Of a stretch of 64,000 nt of DNA, positions 14,113-22,859 are shown in pieces. Made by a program: the position numbers and the translations under genes. The stretch lies in NCBI RefSeq assembly GCF_016741775.1, contig NZ_JAERRK010000008.1:62001-126000 (forward strand), written 5' to 3'. Source of the DNA: Streptomyces actinomycinicus. Its GTDB lineage: Bacteria; Actinomycetota; Actinomycetes; Streptomycetales; Streptomycetaceae. A model generated the notes under the pieces. The model had not been told where the DNA came from and made no database searches. It saw only the letters and a list, made by a program, of their open reading frames with translations. Each line of letters begins with the position of its first letter. Position 1 is the first letter of the stretch.

Positions 14113-16245
14113 TCAGGCGGCCCGCTCCTCCTCCACGTCCTCGGTGAGCGGCACCTGCGGTCCGTCCAGCTCGCCGAGCCAGCGCCGCAGTACGCCGTGG
14201 ACCTGCTCGGCCCCGGTCAGCCGCTCCCCGTCCCCGGCCGGCGCGGACAGGTCCAGCGGGGAGAGCAGGAAGGGACGGGACTGTGGGCCGCCGAGGCCGC
14301 CGTGCGAACCGATCTGCTCCTCGAACGCGAGGACTTCGCCGTCGGCGGGGTCGAGGGCGGAGTTCACCATGATGTCGGCGGTGTGCGGGAAGGAGTGGGT
14401 GCGGCGGACGGCGTCGGCGGCGCCGGGGCCGAAGTGCGCCAGCGGGCCGGGTCCGTCGTCGAGCCGGGCGAGCGGGACCTCGGCGCCGCCCGCCCCCAGC
14501 ACCACGCCGTCGTGCTTCTCGCTGCGCACCAGCAGGAAGCCTATGCCGGGGTGGCTGGCGAGGGTGGTGAGCAGGGCGGGGTGGCGGGCGTCGATCTCCT
14601 CCTTGGTCATGCGGTGCGGGACGTCCGGGAAGGAGACCAGGCCGAGGTTGCCGGAGGCCAGCACGATCGGCTCGGAACGGCGGGAGGGGCGGTGGTGCTC
14701 GCCCTTCTCCTCCACGGGCCGGCGCAGGGCGGCGCGGACGGCGGCGCGGGCCTCGGCGCCGCTGCGCGTGCGTTCGGCCCGGCGCGGCACGTGCAGTCCG
14801 CAGCCGGCCCGGACGAGGTCGCCGAGGGTGAGCCCGTAGCGGGCGCGGAAGGTTTCGCCGCAGCTCTGTCCGTGGTCGGAGAGGACGACGAGCCGGTAGG
14901 GCCGGGGGGCGTGTTCGGCGACGCGTTCGAGGAGGGCGAGGGACCGGTCGAGGCGCTGCAGGACCTTCTCGGCGTCCCGGCTGCGGGGGCCGGAGTGATG
15001 GGCGACCTCGTCGTAGGCGACGAGGTCGGCGTAGACGGCGGTGCGGCCGGCGAGCATGTCGCCCATGACCGCGGCGACGACGACGTCCCGTTCGACGACG
15101 GTGGCGAAGGCGCGGACGAACGGGTACAGGCCGCCCCGGGCGACCCGCGGGCGCTGCTTGCGCAGGCGGGCCCGGGTGGACTCGCCGATCTCGCGGGCCA
15201 CCTCGGCGATGAAGGACAGGGCGGTGCGGACGGCGCCCGCGGGGTCGGAGAAGTAGGCGAAGTAGCCGGCGCGGGAACGGTTCTCCCGGCCGCGGCGGCG
15301 CGTGGCGATCGACAGCACGAGGGCCTGTTCGCCGGCGCCGCCGCTGAAGAGGTTGCCGCGGCTGGCGCCGTCCACCGCGAGGAGCCCGTCGTCACCGGTG
15401 CGCAGCACGGCGCGGCGCTGGAGTTCGGCGGCGCTGGTCGGCCGGTTGCTCACCATCACCTCGCCCCGGTCCTTCTCGTACCAGCGGAAGGCCGGCACGT
15501 CGAAGGTGCTGCCGTGCAGGATGCCGAGCTGGCTGGCGCCGGTCTGGCTGGACCAGTCCGTGTGCCAGGGATCGAGGCGGTGGGTGGGCCGGTGGGCGGG
15601 TCCTCCGGTGCGGCGCACGCCGTGGTCCGGCGGCGGTGTGCCGTCACCGGTGGACAGCCAGCGGGCGACCGTCGGCATCAGGCCCTTGGCGACGGCGTCC
15701 GTGAGGACGTCGTGGCCGACGCCGTCGAGCTGGACGCAGACCAGGCCTGGCGCGGTGGGGCAGGGCGGCTGGGCCCGGCGGCTGCGCGTGGCCAGGCGGT
15801 GCAGGCGGCGCCGGTACGTCTCGTCGTCCCGGACGGTGAGGGCCGCGCCGGTGGCGGAGGCGACGGCGGACATCACGGCCGCCACGATGACGGCGGTCTC
15901 GGGCGCGGCCTCGCCCCGCCCGGAGGGGTTGAGGCGCAGCGCGAGCAGCAGCAGGGAGCCGTTCAGGAAGAAGACCAGCAGGCCGAGGACGAAGGCGGGG
16001 ACGAGCAGCAACAGCCGTACCAGGAGCGGCCAGACCACGGCCGAGAGCACACCGAAGGCGCCGGCGCCGCAGGCGGCGGTCACGGCGATGCGGGTGGCGC
16101 TGTCACCGTCGGCGGACTGGAGCTGGAAGTCCGGCAGGAGGGCGGCCAGGGCCAGCATGGTGACGGTGGACACCGCCCATACGGCGGTGCTCCGCCCGAC
16201 CTGACTGGCGATCCGCCGCCACCGCACCCCTCGCACGCCCCGCAC
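14113..16245 (-). CDS. Holin-like membrane domain fused to alkaline-phosphatase-superfamily phosphodiesterase
   Basis: The 710-residue protein begins with about four hydrophobic helices (residues 20-135) resembling 4-TM phage-holin-family proteins. An alkaline phosphatase/nucleotide pyrophosphatase fold follows (about 165-690). Visible family features are VCVQLDGVGHDVL with MPTVARWL, the NRPTSAAELQ loop, DLVAYDEVAHHSGP and LVVLSDHGQS, the last two supplying the metal ligands Asp and His. The catalytic domain therefore probably faces one side of the membrane and hydrolyses a phosphodiester or phosphomonoester. The GTG at 16245 is uncertain, since several GTG codons follow within 30 bp and none has a clear ribosome site. 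The substrate is unknown. Confidence 0.82.
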   Translation of the reverse strand: MRGVRGVRWRRIASQVGRSTAVWAVSTVTMLALAALLPDFQLQSADGDSATRIAVTAACGAGAFGVLSAVVWPLLVRLLLLVPAFVLGLLVFFLNGSLLLLALRLNPSGRGEAAPETAVIVAAVMSAVASATGAALTVRDDETYRRRLHRLATRSRRAQPPCPTAPGLVCVQLDGVGHDVLTDAVAKGLMPTVARWLSTGDGTPPPDHGVRRTGGPAHRPTHRLDPWHTDWSSQTGASQLGILHGSTFDVPAFRWYEKDRGEVMVSNRPTSAAELQRRAVLRTGDDGLLAVDGASRGNLFSGGAGEQALVLSIATRRRGRENRSRAGYFAYFSDPAGAVRTALSFIAEVAREIGESTRARLRKQRPRVARGGLYPFVRAFATVVERDVVVAAVMGDMLAGRTAVYADLVAYDEVAHHSGPRSRDAEKVLQRLDRSLALLERVAEHAPRPYRLVVLSDHGQSCGETFRARYGLTLGDLVRAGCGLHVPRRAERTRSGAEARAAVRAALRRPVEEKGEHHRPSRRSEPIVLASGNLGLVSFPDVPHRMTKEEIDARHPALLTTLASHPGIGFLLVRSEKHDGVVLGAGGAEVPLARLDDGPGPLAHFGPGAADAVRRTHSFPHTADIMVNSALDPADGEVLAFEEQIGSHGGLGGPQSRPFLLSPLDLSAPAGDGERLTGAEQVHGVLRRWLGELDGPQVPLTEDVEEERAA

Positions 16246-16797: not shown

Positions 16798-16881
16798 GGC
16801 GTCCCCCTCACCTCCGGGTTTCGCCGCCGACCCTACTCCTGCCCGTAGGCTTCGGGGAGTCGCGTGAAGGAGGCGAAAGAG

Positions 16882-17655
16882 GTGCCGGTGGAGATCACCT
16901 GGTGGGGCCACGCAACCTGCACGGTGGAGGATGCGAACACACGGGTGCTCACCGATCCTCTGTTCGCCCGCCGGCTGGCCCATCTGCGCCGCCGCCGGGG
17001 CGCCGTGCCGCCCGCCGAGGCCCGGCGCGCGGACGTGGCCCTCGTCTCCCACTTGCACGCCGACCACCTGCACCTGCCCTCGCTCGCCCGCCTCGGCCCC
17101 GGCACGCGCCTGCTCGTGCCCCGGGGCGCACCACGGGCGGTACCGGGCGTGCGCCGGCTGCGGCACCTGCGCATCACCGAGGTGGTCCCCGGGGACGAGG
17201 TGCGGATAGGCGAGCTGCTGGTGCGGGTGGTGCCGGCGCGGCACGACGGGCGCCGGCTGCCGGTGGGCCCGCAGCGGACCCCCGCGCTGGGCTACGTCGT
17301 CGAGGGCGAGGCACGCACCTACTTCGCCGGGGACACCGGCCTGTTCGACGCGATGGCCGAGCGGGTCGGGGCGGTGGACGTGGCGCTGCTGCCGGTGGGC
17401 GGGTGGGGCCCGTACCTCGGGGAGGGTCACCTGGACGCCGGACGGGCGGCGCAGGCGCTGGCCCGGCTGGCGCCGCGGGCCGCGGTGCCGGTGCACTACG
17501 GCACGTACTGGCCGCTCGGCATGGATGCGGTGCGCCCGCACGAGTTCCATGCGCCGGGCGACGAGTTCGTGCGGCTGGCGGCGGCGGCCGCGCCGGGGGT
17601 GGCGGTGCACAAGCTCGGGCACGGCGAGAGCGTGCGGCTGGAGGTCGCCCGGTGA
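16882..17655 (+). CDS. UlaG-like metallo-beta-lactamase-fold hydrolase
   Basis: The 257-residue protein has the metal site HLHADH at residues 57-62, a further site in FAGDTGLFDAM, and the late His in VPVHYGTYWP, so it should bind two metals. It opens directly with the fold's first strand (ITWWGHATCTVEDANTRVLTDP), typical of UlaG-like hydrolases. The GTG at 16882 is preferred because AAGGAGG lies 8 bp before it; a GTG at 16864 is also in frame. Its stop overlaps the DedA gene by 4 bp, suggesting a joint membrane-associated task. The substrate is unknown. Confidence 0.85.
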   Translation: MPVEITWWGHATCTVEDANTRVLTDPLFARRLAHLRRRRGAVPPAEARRADVALVSHLHADHLHLPSLARLGPGTRLLVPRGAPRAVPGVRRLRHLRITEVVPGDEVRIGELLVRVVPARHDGRRLPVGPQRTPALGYVVEGEARTYFAGDTGLFDAMAERVGAVDVALLPVGGWGPYLGEGHLDAGRAAQALARLAPRAAVPVHYGTYWPLGMDAVRPHEFHAPGDEFVRLAAAAAPGVAVHKLGHGESVRLEVAR

Positions 17656-18284
17656 GGTGGCCGGCCGCCGTGGTGGCGCTCGCCGCCGCTTCGACGTCGG
17701 CCGTGCCGCCGGAGTCGACGCAGCGGGCGCTCGGCTACCCGTCGTTGTTCCTGCTGGTGCTGATCGGGGCGCTGGTGCCCGTGGTGCCGACCGGGGCGCT
17801 GGTGAGTTCGGCCGCGGTGGTGGCGTTCCATCAGACGGCGCCGTTCTCGCTGGCGCTGGTGTTCGTGACGGCGTCGCTGGCCGCGTTCCTGGGGGATGCG
17901 GCGCTGTACTGGCTGGGGCGGCGCGGCTTGCGGTCGAAGAACGGCTCGCGGTGGCTGGAGGCGATCCGCTCCCGGGCGCCGGAGGAACGCCTGGCGCAGG
18001 CGCGGGAGAAGCTGGCCGGGCACGGGGTCGCGGTGCTGGTGCTGTCCCGGCTGGTCCCCGCGGGGCGCATACCGGTGATGCTGGCCTGCCTGATGGCCGA
18101 ATGGCCGCTGCGCAGGTTCGCCCGGGGGAACGTGGCCGCCTGTCTGGCGTGGGCGGTCACGTATCAAGTGATCGGGATCCTGGGGGGCTCGCTGTTCCCG
18201 GAGCCGTGGGAGGGGGTCGTGGTGGCGGTCGCACTGACGGTGGTGGTCAGCGCGGTTCCGGGCGCGGTCAGGCGCCTGCGGTAG
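17652..18284 (+). CDS. DedA/VTT-domain membrane protein
   Basis: The 210-residue product has several hydrophobic helices and the DedA pattern: FLGDAALYWLGRRG with an acidic residue in the re-entrant region and VLVLSRLVPAGRIPVMLACLMAEWPLRRFARGNVAACLAWA with the conserved Arg residues. DedA proteins act as lipid scramblases or flippases, for example for undecaprenyl phosphate. Translation is coupled to the metallo-hydrolase by a GTGA overlap. The first 15 residues are hydrophobic and may be a signal-like helix. A 40-bp tandem repeat block follows downstream. Confidence 0.85.
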   Translation: MRWPAAVVALAAASTSAVPPESTQRALGYPSLFLLVLIGALVPVVPTGALVSSAAVVAFHQTAPFSLALVFVTASLAAFLGDAALYWLGRRGLRSKNGSRWLEAIRSRAPEERLAQAREKLAGHGVAVLVLSRLVPAGRIPVMLACLMAEWPLRRFARGNVAACLAWAVTYQVIGILGGSLFPEPWEGVVVAVALTVVVSAVPGAVRRLR

Positions 18285-18513: not shown

Positions 18514-19662
18514 TCAGTCGAGCACCCTCGATCCGCCGATCGGAAGGTCCCACAGGTCCTCCCGTGCGAGGCCCGCCTTCTCCCAGGCCGCCGCGGCGCG
18601 CGTGAGGGGCTCCAGGACCGGCTCGGCGGAGAGGACGAAAGTGCCCCAGTGCATGGGGGCCATGCGGCGGGCGCCCAGGTCCATGGTGGCCCGGACCGCC
18701 TCCTCGGGGTCGCAGTGGACGTCGCGGAGCCACCAGCGCGGATCGTAGGCGCCGATGGGCATCAGGGCGAGGTCGATGCCGGGGTGGCGGCGGCCGATGC
18801 GGGAGAACCAGTGGCCGTAGCCGCTGTCACCGGCGAAGTAGAGCCGCTTCCCGTCGGCGGCGGTGATCACCCAGCCGCCCCAGAGGCTGTGGCACGTGTC
18901 GGTGAGGGTGCGCTTGGACCAGTGGTGGGCCGGCACGAAGTCGAAGCGGACACCGGACAGTTCGGCACCCTCCCACCAGTCCAGCTCGGTGACGCAGGTG
19001 AACCGGCGCCGGCGGAACCAGCGGCCGAGGCCGGCCGGCGCGAACACCGGCGTCTCGCGCGGGAGTCGGCGCAGGGTGGGGGCGTCCAGGTGGTCGTAGT
19101 GGTTGTGGCTGATGACGACGGCGTCGACACGGGGCAGGGTGTCCCAGGGCACGCCGACGGGGGTGATGCGGGCCGGGGTGCCGAGGATGCGGCGGGACCA
19201 CACCGGGTCCGTGAGCACCGTGAGTCCGCCGATGCGGACGATCCAGCTGGCGTGTCCCGCCCAGGTGACGGCGAGGGTGCGGGTGCCGGCGCGGGGCAGC
19301 GGGGCCGGTGCGTACGGAAGCCTGGGGATGCCGGCGAGGCCGTCCGCGCCGGGGCGGACGGCTCCTTCGCGGGCGAAGCGGGCGAGGGCCTTGAGGCCGG
19401 GCAGGGGCGCGGTGAGCCGGTCGTGGAAGGTCCGGGGCCACACCCGGAGTTCGCCCAGCGGGCGGGGCTCGGCCAGCGGCGGAGAAGGGGGCCCGAGGGC
19501 GGTCCGCACGGCGGGCTCGCCGGCTGTCGCGGTCGTGGAGACTGGCTCGCCGGCTGCGGTGGTCGTCGGGACGGGCTCGTCGGCTGTCGCGGTCGTCGGG
19601 ACGGGCTCGCCGGCTGCGGTGGCCGTCGAAGTGGGGCCGGGCTCATGCGTCTGCTGCGTCAT
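18514..19662 (-). CDS. Metallo-beta-lactamase-fold hydrolase, NAPE-PLD-like, with N-terminal repeat
   Basis: The 382-residue protein has the metal motif SHNHYDHLD, then FVPAHHWSKRTLTDTCHSLWGGWVI, YFAGDSGYG and MAPMHWGTF, the signature order of N-acyl-phosphatidylethanolamine phospholipase D-like hydrolases. The region before the domain (about residues 10-55) is a low-complexity segment of four 10-residue units around A-G-E-P-V. The ATG at 19662 is chosen because GGGAG lies just upstream; an ATG five codons earlier is also possible. The start overlaps the stop of the aminotransferase-fold gene by 4 bp, so the two proteins are probably made together. The substrate may be a phospholipid or N-acyl compound; this is inference. 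Confidence 0.85.
   Translation of the reverse strand: MTQQTHEPGPTSTATAAGEPVPTTATADEPVPTTTAAGEPVSTTATAGEPAVRTALGPPSPPLAEPRPLGELRVWPRTFHDRLTAPLPGLKALARFAREGAVRPGADGLAGIPRLPYAPAPLPRAGTRTLAVTWAGHASWIVRIGGLTVLTDPVWSRRILGTPARITPVGVPWDTLPRVDAVVISHNHYDHLDAPTLRRLPRETPVFAPAGLGRWFRRRRFTCVTELDWWEGAELSGVRFDFVPAHHWSKRTLTDTCHSLWGGWVITAADGKRLYFAGDSGYGHWFSRIGRRHPGIDLALMPIGAYDPRWWLRDVHCDPEEAVRATMDLGARRMAPMHWGTFVLSAEPVLEPLTRAAAAWEKAGLAREDLWDLPIGGSRVLD
19514..19633. repeat. Four tandem 30-bp repeats in the N-terminus of the NAPE-PLD-like gene
   Basis: Units start at 19514, 19544, 19574 and 19604 with variants of GGCTCGCCGGCTG. The exact 30-bp period keeps the frame and encodes a 10-residue Ala/Thr/Glu/Pro repeat. 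Confidence 0.9.
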
Positions 19663-20918
19663 CGAGGAGGCTCCCATCGCTGAGCGTCGTCGCGGAGGCC
19701 GTCGAAGGCCGACCTCAAGGAGATCAACGCCCGTTGCAGGTGTGGCAGTTCCAACGGTGCGGGTGACATGAGGCATTCCGTGCGCTCCTCGTCCGTGCCG
19801 CCCAGCAGGGGCCCGGTGGCGAGCCGTACGCGCAGCGCCTGGAGGTCGTCGCCGAAGCGGTGGCCGCCGGGCGCGGGCATGCCGAGCCGCGCGGTGAGGA
19901 GGTCCTCCAGTTCCTGTGCGTCGCCCGCGCCCTGCGCGGCGAGGGGTTCGCGCAGCGGGCCGAGGTCGGCGTACAGGTGACGGCCGGCCTGCGGCGGCCG
20001 GGCGAGCGCCCCGGCGGCGACGACCGCGGCGTGCACGGCCGCGGCCACGCGCGCGTGCAGCCGTACGGTGGCCTCGCGGCGCTCGGTGACGGGCGGGGGC
20101 TCGTCGAGGGCGTACCCGGCGGCCGCGGCGACCGGTACGGCGATGGCGGCGCCGAGTGCGGTCAGGATGTCGAGCACACGCGCGTGGAGGTGCCGTCCGG
20201 CACCGGTGGCGGGGAAACGGGCGACGGCGGCGGGCCAGCCCGGGGGCAGCAGCGAGCCGGCCAGATCGGTGACGACGGTGACCTGCTCGGGCTGCATCTC
20301 GGCGGGGCTGAGCAGCACGGTCTCGTGCGGGTCGTGCAGGGTGTCACGCCAGGTCTCGTCGCTGACCAGGTGCAGGCCTTCGGTCGCGGCGGCCTCAATG
20401 GTCTCGTGCAGCAGTTCGGGCGGGGAGACGGTGGCGGTGGGGTCGTCGGCCACGGACAGCACCAGGAGCCGGGGGTCACCGCCCTCGGCACGGACCCGGC
20501 GCACGGTCTCCAGCAGGGCGTACGGATCGGGGACGCCGCCGCTCTCGGCGGGCGTCGGCACATGGAAGACGGGCCGGCCGAGGAGGCGGGCGTACGGTGC
20601 CCACCAGGCGGCGCAGGGGCGGGGCACGAGGACGTCGGCGCCGTCGCCGGCGAGCGCGGCGGTCAGCGCCAGCAGCAGCGCGGGCGCACCGGGTCCGGCG
20701 ACGACCTGGTCGGGGACGCTGGGCAGGCCCCGCCGGGTCCAGTAACCGCAGGCCGCCTCCAGCAGGGCGGGAGCGCCGCCGATGGGCTGGGCGTCGGCCC
20801 GGCCCGCCGCGGCGGCGATCACGGCGGACAGCTCGGGGAGGACGGGCAGGCCGTCGCCGGGGAGGTGCGGGCCGTAGCGGACCGGGCCGTGGCCTTCACC
20901 GGGGTCCGTCCGCCGCAT
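19659..20918 (-). CDS. Aminotransferase class I/II-fold protein without any lysine
   Basis: The 419-residue protein has the fold-type I pattern: YGPHLPGDGLPVLPELSAVIAAAAGRADAQPIGGAPALLEAACGYWTRRG, then VVAGPGAPALLLALTAAL (cofactor loop), PRPCAAWW and LHLVSDETWRDTL with the cofactor Asp. Where active members have S-x-S-K, this one reads VTDLAGSLLPPGWP, and the whole protein contains no Lys. It therefore cannot form the usual Schiff base with pyridoxal phosphate. It is coupled by a 4-bp overlap to the metallo-hydrolase at 19662. Plausible roles are a cofactor-binding regulator, a scaffold, or a non-aldimine enzyme. Confidence 0.82.
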   Translation of the reverse strand: MRRTDPGEGHGPVRYGPHLPGDGLPVLPELSAVIAAAAGRADAQPIGGAPALLEAACGYWTRRGLPSVPDQVVAGPGAPALLLALTAALAGDGADVLVPRPCAAWWAPYARLLGRPVFHVPTPAESGGVPDPYALLETVRRVRAEGGDPRLLVLSVADDPTATVSPPELLHETIEAAATEGLHLVSDETWRDTLHDPHETVLLSPAEMQPEQVTVVTDLAGSLLPPGWPAAVARFPATGAGRHLHARVLDILTALGAAIAVPVAAAAGYALDEPPPVTERREATVRLHARVAAAVHAAVVAAGALARPPQAGRHLYADLGPLREPLAAQGAGDAQELEDLLTARLGMPAPGGHRFGDDLQALRVRLATGPLLGGTDEERTECLMSPAPLELPHLQRALISLRSAFDGLRDDAQRWEPPR

Positions 20919-21403
20919 GTCCGCCTCCGCCCAGTCCGTGGTGCCGTCGTGACGTCGTGCCGCCCGGTCGGGGCCGTACCTGTCTCACGGGCGCGGGCCG
21001 CTGTGCGCCGCCGTGCCGCGGGTGCGGCGTGCCGTGCGCCCCTGAAGGTGTCAGGGCCCGCGAGGCGTCCCGACCGAGGTGCTCCCTCTGTCGTCTGCCG
21101 TGTGCCTGTCGTGTGCCGGATGCCTGTCGTGTGCCGGATGCCGTTCGTATTCCGAGTGCCGTTTGCCGTGCGACTGCCGTCTGCGTCTGTGCGTCTGTGC
21201 GTCTGCTGCGTCTGTGCGTCTGCTGCGTCTGTGCGTCTGCGGTACGTGGCCGGTCGTGCGTCCTCGGTCGTGCGTCGCGCTCGTCGGGTGGTGCCGGTGC
21301 CGCTCGTACGGTGGCCGGTCACGCAGTGGTGCGTGCGGGTTGTGCTCGGGAGGGTGTGTACCCGCCGGGCGGCCCTCCATGGGGGTCGCCGACGTTGTGC
21401 GGA
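20919..21403. other. Long intergenic region with low-complexity repeats
   Basis: No convincing gene is present in these 485 bp. The short open frames are rich in Arg, Thr or Cys and lack ribosome sites. The region holds the tandem repeats at 21103-21240 and should contain the promoter of the aminotransferase-fold gene, which reads leftward from 20918. I see no clear terminator. Confidence 0.7.
21103..21240. repeat. Short tandem repeats in the gap upstream of the aminotransferase-fold gene
   Basis: An exact 18-bp unit (TGCCTGTCGTGTGCCGGA) occurs twice in tandem at 21103-21120 and 21121-21138. At 21181-21240 a run of GCGTCTG and CTGCGTCTGT units forms a second, pyrimidine-rich array on the plus strand. 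Confidence 0.85.
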
Positions 21404-22390
21404 TCACATCCCCGAGAACCGGCCTGCCGTGGACCTCCTCAGGCCGTACAGCCGGTAGACGGCTCCCGCGCAGGCCGCGGCGATCAGGGCACCGCCTGCG
21501 ACGAGCGCCGGTACCGAGTCCTCGAAGGTACCGCCGGTACCGGCCGCCACCCCGTGCTGGACCGTCGCCGGGTCGCACCCGCCGGAGGCGCTGGACCCAC
21601 GGCACCCGTCGCCGTCCTGGCAGCCTGCACCGTGCGACTCCCCGCACCGGCCGCCGTCACCGCCACCGCCGCCACGGCCACCGCTGTCGCGCCCGCCGCC
21701 GTCCTGGCCGGCTCCGTCCCGGCCCGCACCGTCACGACCGCTGCTGTCACGACCGGTGCTGTCACGACCGGTACCGGTCTGTCCGCCACCGTCGCGACCC
21801 GCGCCCGTCTGTCCCCCGCTGTCGCGGCCGGCGGTGTCCTGGCCGGAACCGGGACCGACGGGCCCGCCGCCGTCCCGGCCTGCGCTGTCGTGGCCCGCGG
21901 ACGCCTGTCCGCCGCTGTCACGCCCGCCGCCGTCCTGGCTGCCCCCGCCTTCGCGACCGGAGCCGACCTGCCCGGCGCCGGCCTGTCCGCCCGTCTCGCA
22001 GTACTGCCCGGGATCGGCGCAGGAACCGGCGTCACCGGTCCGGGTGCCGAGGTAGGGCGCGCCCGTTCCGTCGGGCACGCCGGTTCCGTTGGGGACACCC
22101 GTTCCGTCAGGCACGCCCGTTCCGTCCGGCACGCCCGTTCCGTCCGGCACGCCCGTTCCGTCCGGCACGCCGGTTCCCTCAGGGGCAGCCGGGCAGAGGG
22201 CGTCGGCGGAGGCCGGTGCGGTGCCGTCGAGGCCGTCCGGGACCAGGCCGGTGACGGGGTCACAGACCGCCGGGGCGATGGCGGCGGTGGCCGGAGCCGC
22301 GGTAACCGCGAGGGCCGCGGGCCCGGTCAGGGCCAGTGCGGCGCCGGCGGCGAAGAGGACGGGGAGGGCACGGGCGGCGGTGCGGAGCAT
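21404..22390 (-). CDS. Secreted, repeat-rich surface protein with C-terminal membrane helix
   Basis: The 328-residue protein has a Sec signal peptide (MLRTAARALPVLFAAGAALALTGP, cleavage probably after an Ala-rich site near residue 37). A Cys-containing segment precedes a run of seven hexapeptides of type (D/E/N)GTGVP. A long Gly/Asp/Arg/Ser repeat region follows (GGRDSGGQ-like, about 130-245), then a Cys-rich block (CGESHGAGC, CQDGDGC). The C-terminus is a hydrophobic helix (VPALVAGGALIAAACAGAVY) followed by RLYGLRR, a stop-transfer anchor. GAGGAG precedes the ATG at 22390. It is likely an extended, flexible cell-surface protein. No enzymatic domain is seen. Confidence 0.75.
   Translation of the reverse strand: MLRTAARALPVLFAAGAALALTGPAALAVTAAPATAAIAPAVCDPVTGLVPDGLDGTAPASADALCPAAPEGTGVPDGTGVPDGTGVPDGTGVPDGTGVPNGTGVPDGTGAPYLGTRTGDAGSCADPGQYCETGGQAGAGQVGSGREGGGSQDGGGRDSGGQASAGHDSAGRDGGGPVGPGSGQDTAGRDSGGQTGAGRDGGGQTGTGRDSTGRDSSGRDGAGRDGAGQDGGGRDSGGRGGGGGDGGRCGESHGAGCQDGDGCRGSSASGGCDPATVQHGVAAGTGGTFEDSVPALVAGGALIAAACAGAVYRLYGLRRSTAGRFSGM
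22061..22190. repeat. About seven tandem 18-bp repeats in the surface-protein gene
   Basis: The plus-strand unit CCCGTTCCGTCCGGCACG recurs every 18 bp with few changes and encodes the hexapeptide repeat GTGVPD on the minus strand. The third and fourth units are nearly identical, suggesting recent copy-number change. Confidence 0.9.
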
Positions 22391-22859
22391 GGGAGGGGCT
22401 CCTCGCGGGCGGCGGGCGGTCGGACGGCGGTACTCCGGCGCACCGGTACGACGGCAACGCCGTACGGCGCCCGGCACGGGCACGTTCGTGCCCTGGCTGC
22501 CATCACAGCCCGCGGAGGGCCGTACCGCGCGCGGCCGGAGCCCATTCGCGGGACACGCGGGGCCGGGCGGGTGAACGGGGACGGCCCGCGACGGCCACGC
22601 ACGGAAGGCATGCGGGAACCCCGCGCCCGGTCACGGCGCACCCGCACGCACACCCGGCCCGGTCAGCCTCGGCCCGACGCGGGCTCGGCCCCGGGCACAC
22701 CAGTGCCCGGGGCGGCGCGAGGTGCGGGAAACCCGCTCGGCGGCCGTCGGCAACCCGCGGCGTACACCCCGCCCGGGGAGGTTTTCCGTCTCCCGCGCAG
22801 GTGACTCGGTATGTGCTGACCGGATCGTCCGCTTCGCACTGCACCTGGGAGGTCTCTCC
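22391..22859. other. Divergent intergenic region between the surface protein and the pyruvate oxidase-like gene
   Basis: These 469 bp separate two divergent genes and must hold both promoters. Long open frames cross it in several phases, but they are antisense continuations with Arg/Pro-rich translations. I see no operator palindrome or RNA gene. A good ribosome site (GGGAGG) lies just before 22860. Confidence 0.6.

Follow-up and report, generated by a model that had tools for sequence, protein, structure and literature searches.

A Lys-less aminotransferase homolog, very probably a pseudoenzyme, encoded next to a NAPE-PLD-like hydrolase in Streptomyces

Organization of the locus

We analyzed a 64,000-nucleotide stretch of the Streptomyces actinomycinicus genome (hereafter, the window), in which a first-pass annotation made from the sequence had pointed to a 419-residue aminotransferase homolog that is devoid of Lys and overlaps a metallo-hydrolase gene by 4 bp. 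Both observations were confirmed (Table 1). The reading frame starts with ATG and its translation has no Lys, and its TGA stop codon (19659–19661) overlaps the ATG of the hydrolase gene (19660–19662), giving an ATGA junction of 4 bp in total. The frame and the junction are kept by orthologs in hundreds of genomes, which rules out a chance ORF or a wrong strand. Promoter- or terminator-like sites were looked for near the gene pair, and none were found.

The adjacent hydrolase gave a 260-residue phmmer match to human NAPE-PLD (4qn9; E = 2.1e-59, 204.8 bits, hydrolase residues 122–381), in which the HNHYDHLD motif and other metal-ligand motifs are conserved. It thus has both the homology and the HxHxDH metal motif of a NAPE-PLD-like metallo-hydrolase. 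Unlike the human protein, it is bacterial and has a repetitive, low-complexity N-terminus. A 30-bp tandem repeat (19499–19628, about 4 copies) lies inside its coding region, and the repeat-encoded N-terminus of about 55 residues is probably disordered.

Beyond the hydrolase, gene order is also conserved: a convergent DedA-type gene and a second metallo-hydrolase, which is likely the operon partner of the DedA gene, are followed by a membrane phosphodiesterase. This content suggests a role of the locus in membrane-lipid metabolism. Short tandem repeats with 18-bp and 8/17-bp units occur upstream of the Lys-less gene (21088–21240). They are followed by a putative repetitive surface-type protein (21404–22483) that has no Pfam match, is poorly conserved among relatives and contains an 18-bp coding repeat of 6.8 copies (22056–22177).

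Table 1. Genes and residues of the locus, in window coordinates
Feature	Position	Strand	Evidence or state
Membrane phosphodiesterase, further neighbor	14113..16245	(-)	PF01663 and PF04020; conserved order
Second metallo-hydrolase	16864..17655	(+)	PF12706, E 1.1e-37; conserved order
DedA-type VTT-domain membrane protein, convergent neighbor	17703..18284 (start approximate)	(+)	PF09335, E 1.9e-15
NAPE-PLD-like metallo-hydrolase, 382 aa	18514..19662	(-)	phmmer to 4qn9; PF12706, 159 bits
HNHYDHLD metal-binding motif of the hydrolase	19084..19107	(-)	Identical in the alignment with human NAPE-PLD
Lys-less aminotransferase-fold protein, probable pseudoenzyme, 419 aa	19659..20918	(-)	PF00155, AF2, Foldseek, dN/dS
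R365, column of the alpha-carboxylate Arg (R374 of AAT)	19824..19826	(-)	Kept, R 44/44
Degenerate Schiff-base loop DLAGSLLPPGWP, residues 218-229	20232..20267	(-)	Lys replaced by G221, phosphate Arg by P229
D187-E188-T189-W190	20349..20360	(-)	Ring-N Asp kept; cofactor Tyr (Y214) replaced by Trp
D159, column of the ring-contacting Asn (N183 of E. coli AAT)	20442..20444	(-)	Asn lost clade-wide
A103, column of the PLP-stacking aromatic (W127 of AAT)	20610..20612	(-)	Lost
A78-P79, Ser-Lys phosphate-cup columns	20682..20687	(-)	Both residues lost
A43, column of the neighbor-subunit Tyr (Y65 of AAT)	20790..20792	(-)	Lost

Predicted fold of the Lys-less protein

The 419-residue protein matched Pfam Aminotran_1_2 (PF00155) above its cut-off (54.4 bits, E = 1.5e-14), and at the sequence level it also matched Thermus aspartate aminotransferase (E = 3.5e-14). 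An AF2 model computed from an alignment of 75 of the protein's own relatives had a pLDDT of 92.6 and a pTM of 0.90, with low confidence for residues 1–13. When this model was used in a Foldseek search, solved aminotransferases were matched over nearly the full length. The top match was the T. thermophilus aspartate aminotransferase (1bjw, 5bj3; E = 3e-20, TM 0.72–0.83), whose identity to our protein is about 21–23%. Sequence matches, AF2 confidence and Foldseek matches therefore make a solid case for the prediction of an intact class I aminotransferase fold.

MocR regulators, in which a GntR DNA-binding domain is joined to an aminotransferase domain, likewise represent a non-enzymatic use of this fold, and the protein had a weak NCBIfam match to them (39 bits versus a cut-off of 487). 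However, it has neither a DNA-binding domain nor the PLP-binding Lys. We rejected a MocR regulator because there is no GntR domain; only PF00155 scored above cut-off, with a match that starts near residue 30.

Loss of the Schiff-base Lys

In the 419-residue protein, the usual S-x-S-K site reads DLAGSLLPPGWP, and G221 occupies the Lys column. A search of 393 Streptomyces genomes found a relative in 371 (E ≤ 1e-40), mostly orthologs, a few of these genomes having only Lys-keeping paralogs or contig-end fragments. Lys was absent from the Schiff-base column in all 62 members of a diverse set drawn from Streptomyces and neighboring genera, whereas all 36 more distant relatives in the larger alignment have it. 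Among 134 deduplicated Streptomyces sequences, this column contained Gly in 124, Ala in 7 and Asp, Glu or Val in the rest, with no Lys. In Lys-less members from other genera it is Ala (often), Gly, Ser or Pro, never Lys. Homologs in the same setting that carry the catalytic Lys, or a Lys at some other conserved position, would have undermined the initial observation. We found neither: no sequence in the 62-member or the 134-member set has Lys at the column, and 70 of 110 orthologous loci encode no Lys at all, with none at the catalytic column in any of the 110. A recurrent Lys near residues 391–398 is absent in most of these orthologs, and a misplaced or alternative Lys was ruled out, as there is no conserved alternative position among the 110. 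Five divergent members (L124, L125, L128, L134 and L200) have long, variable, low-complexity inserts at the old Schiff-base loop.

In a tree built after the trait columns had been taken out of the alignment, the 62 Lys-less sequences fell on one side of a single branch (SH-aLRT support 100) and the 36 Lys-keeping ones on the other. This split points to a single loss event, and the Schiff-base Lys appears to have been lost once, early in Streptomycetaceae. The total absence of Lys from the protein should be read differently. It is partly a matter of composition, and in a lineage with high GC and abundant Arg it is no more than a small step, because the Lys-keeping relatives themselves average just 3.4 Lys per about 410 residues (2–6 in each, one with 11); Lys-less members average 0.4 per protein. 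The real finding is the absence of Lys at the catalytic column in every member of the clade, not the zero total.

Degeneration of the remaining PLP site

A set of class I signature residues has been listed (Lys, Asn, Tyr, Arg, Tyr65, Gly256, Asp, Arg374, Pro184 and Pro128; PMC9309667). The 419-residue protein has lost the equivalents of the first six and kept those of the last four, of which the two prolines are structural. The cofactor Asp region SDETWRD, which had been recognized in the first-pass annotation, is present and carries the ring-N Asp, D187. The loss extends beyond Lys, and about eight cofactor contacts are missing. The ring-contacting Asn is found in all 36 Lys-keeping sequences and in none of the 62 Lys-less ones. 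The phosphate-cup Ser and Lys are at least 95% conserved in the Lys-keeping sister group, and the Lys79 equivalent is absent from all 62 clade members; the PLP-stacking column is Trp in 31 of 31 sister sequences and Ala, Pro, Ser or Thr in the Lys-less set (Trp 0/62), and no clade member has the Tyr65 equivalent. D187 is conserved in 44 of 44 sequences of the first Lys-less set and W190 in 41 of 44, the cofactor Tyr at the latter column being retained in 10 of the 62. The phosphate Arg (R254), replaced by P229 in the window, persists in only 2 of the 62. These are the most basal sequences (L254 and L255), which lack Lys and Asn yet have GGWR at this site. Since Arg survives in just these two, decay of the site was stepwise. 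The ancestor of the sampled clade already lacked the Schiff-base Lys, Asn, Trp, Tyr65 and cup Lys, and the losses of Arg and Tyr came later. The Thermus sequence used as the alignment ruler agrees with the search alignment over residues 53–247, and the losses follow equally from the Lys-keeping sister sequences alone.

Other residues are clade-specific and show almost no variation within the Streptomyces-type set (D159, W190, D218, P229, H314 and the GGHRFGD segment, 351–357). Outside Streptomyces, column 190 is Tyr, Phe, Arg, Leu or Ser, column 221 is Gly, Ala, Ser or Pro, and column 229 is Pro, Arg or Asn.

Compared with Thermus-type class I aminotransferases, the protein retains the fold, the ring-N Asp and the alpha-carboxylate Arg, and lacks the Schiff-base Lys, ring Asn and Tyr, phosphate Arg, Y65 equivalent, stacking aromatic and cup residues. 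Its Lys-keeping actinobacterial sisters (such as L173 and L182) are the nearest sequences on the tree, being 36–46% identical over a near full-length alignment. In contrast to the Lys-less protein, they keep nearly all cofactor residues, and none was found beside a NAPE-PLD-like hydrolase or a DedA locus. From its residues, the 419-residue protein almost certainly could not form an internal aldimine. It most likely does not hold PLP either, because the phosphate cup, stacking aromatic, Asn and Tyr are lost. We are thus highly confident in predicting that it is a non-PLP pseudoenzyme.

Selection on the gene

The median dN/dS of the Lys-less gene was 0.27 (5,045 pairs), versus 0.18 for the neighboring hydrolase; the values come from a simple counting method that may be biased at high GC, yet 0.27 is far below 1. 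The gene is under purifying selection, and with the fold predicted to be intact, it encodes a pseudoenzyme and is not a pseudogene. A decaying pseudogene without function might have been suspected from the lost active site and from the few genomes whose copy is broken or cut (frame changes in G005, a cut in G041). However, this is hardly credible given an open frame in most of the genus, the low dN/dS, the predicted fold and the clade-invariant residues. The frame-broken copy (L239, G005) lies in a genome that has no hydrolase, so relaxation may occur in places. In the other case (L232, G041), the coding sequence is cut after about 65 residues and the hydrolase is present.

Association with the hydrolase gene

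In 155 of 163 loci, the Lys-less gene has the hydrolase as its same-strand neighbor (some genomes being counted twice through two collections). An ATGA junction occurs at 126 of these loci, and 11 have GTGA or TTGA. Among the eight unpaired loci, three are at contig ends and one is a too-short stretch in which the hydrolase is present (L242); the others are real. In six loci from other genera (L246, L249, L251, L252, L253 and L257), the pair is intact and the DedA-type gene, second hydrolase and phosphodiesterase were not found nearby. This pattern favors a real link between the two genes.

The pairing is strong and survives relocation, yet it is dissociable. Among genomes chosen for establishing hydrolase presence or absence, six (G056, G362, G719, G836, G852 and G784) have an open Lys-less gene and no close hydrolase ortholog anywhere in the assembly, and at least three (G289, G156 and G121) encode the hydrolase but lack the Lys-less gene. 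An obligate pair is thereby ruled out, which makes an enzyme of two obligate subunits unlikely. Moreover, comparison of two loci that both lack the hydrolase (L243 and L244) gave a dN/dS of 0.24–0.25; the role of the Lys-less protein is therefore not wholly hydrolase-dependent. In a partial correlation of evolutionary distances among close relatives, the Lys-less gene showed no specific covariation with the hydrolase (partial r 0.04); the gene singled out was the phosphodiesterase (partial r 0.49). The earlier suggestion of a coupled enzyme or a regulator with its effector thus stands as far as conserved pairing is concerned, but is weakened as regards tight coupling, since the genes are separable and their rates do not specifically covary. 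Long open frames at two loci (L025 and L050) raised the possibility of a natural fusion, which was rejected because the hydrolase has a frame of its own that overlaps the other.

Possible functions

We favor the explanation that the protein is a PLP-less pseudoenzyme acting non-catalytically as an accessory or ligand-binding protein, although as a whole we give it only an even chance. The Schiff-base Lys would have been lost first, once, early in Streptomycetaceae, and the rest of the PLP site would have been shed under purifying selection. The folded protein would then serve as an accessory without catalysis; its old substrate pocket, with R365 and D187, may bind a small carboxylate ligand or form a partner surface, and the partner would in most cases, though not necessarily, be the NAPE-PLD-like hydrolase with which it is co-translated. 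That it is an accessory of the hydrolase pathway in particular is a tentative proposal, with the balance slightly against it. The retained carboxylate Arg and Asp could possibly form a carboxylate-sensing pocket; retention of both may also be structural rather than related to ligand binding. A broader and rather unlikely extension is that across Streptomycetaceae the PLP-free fold came to serve a bacterial NAPE-PLD-like lipid hydrolase as a regulatory or scaffold subunit that binds a ligand, tying amino acid, keto acid or headgroup levels to membrane-lipid turnover.

The near-invariant residues of the Streptomyces-type set, together with the adjoining metallo-hydrolase, would also fit a new PLP-independent enzyme with a rebuilt cleft (D159, D187, W190, D218 and R365), for which the hydrolase supplies or uses the substrate. 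We regard this as improbable: columns 190, 221 and 229 vary outside Streptomyces, unlike a conserved catalytic center, and the loop around residue 221 tolerates the long inserts noted above. Still less probable is Schiff-base-independent binding of PLP or PMP, for cofactor-dependent chemistry or vitamin B6 sensing. Such Lys-less PMP users exist among aminotransferase relatives, namely the 3-dehydratases ColD and E1, which have a catalytic His in place of Lys (PMC8987622), and our protein shares their fold and the replacement of Lys and retains the ring-N Asp and carboxylate Arg. However, ColD and E1 keep a working PMP site, whereas here the Lys column holds Gly, Ala, Ser or Pro instead of His and the site is dismantled, with phosphate-cup and ring-stacking residues lost. 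The protein does not, then, belong with dehydratases of this type.

Another arrangement is known from serine palmitoyltransferase, in which the Lys-less LCB1 subunit pairs with LCB2, and by analogy the Lys-less protein could be the dead subunit of a heteromer with a live aminotransferase paralog. Enzymes with the aminotransferase fold usually form dimers, with active sites built from both subunits (PMC9309667), and four genomes (G067, G664, G362 and G850) carry the Lys-less gene together with a Lys-keeping relative. Against this, the genome of the window has no close Lys-keeping relative, the next matches being generic aminotransferases of 24–28% identity, and the Lys-keeping sister genes examined have no genes of the locus nearby. 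We judge such a partnership doubtful, between the two preceding proposals in probability. In G850, a Lys-less-type relative (56% identical) and a Lys-keeping relative are about 20 kb apart (C4, 588324 and 607799; L262).

Implications for annotation

Literature searches for Streptomyces aminotransferase pseudoenzymes, Streptomyces NAPE-PLD and the gene pair found nothing, which is weak evidence of novelty. The stepwise loss, in which the phosphate Arg outlasted Lys, Asn and the bulk of the site, and the basal intermediates make this a tractable case of how an enzyme fold is reused once its cofactor is lost. The frequent partner points to a bacterial NAPE-PLD relative that has gone unstudied, although the genus produces antibiotics and is itself heavily studied. 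The gene is carried by most Streptomyces genomes and scores above the Pfam aminotransferase cut-off; if our reading is true, the similarity-based name "aminotransferase" would be wrong for the Lys-less clade genus-wide. In annotated plasmid records, relatives named pyridoxal-phosphate-dependent aminotransferases are 41–44% identical to the protein, a level of identity also seen for Lys-keeping relatives.
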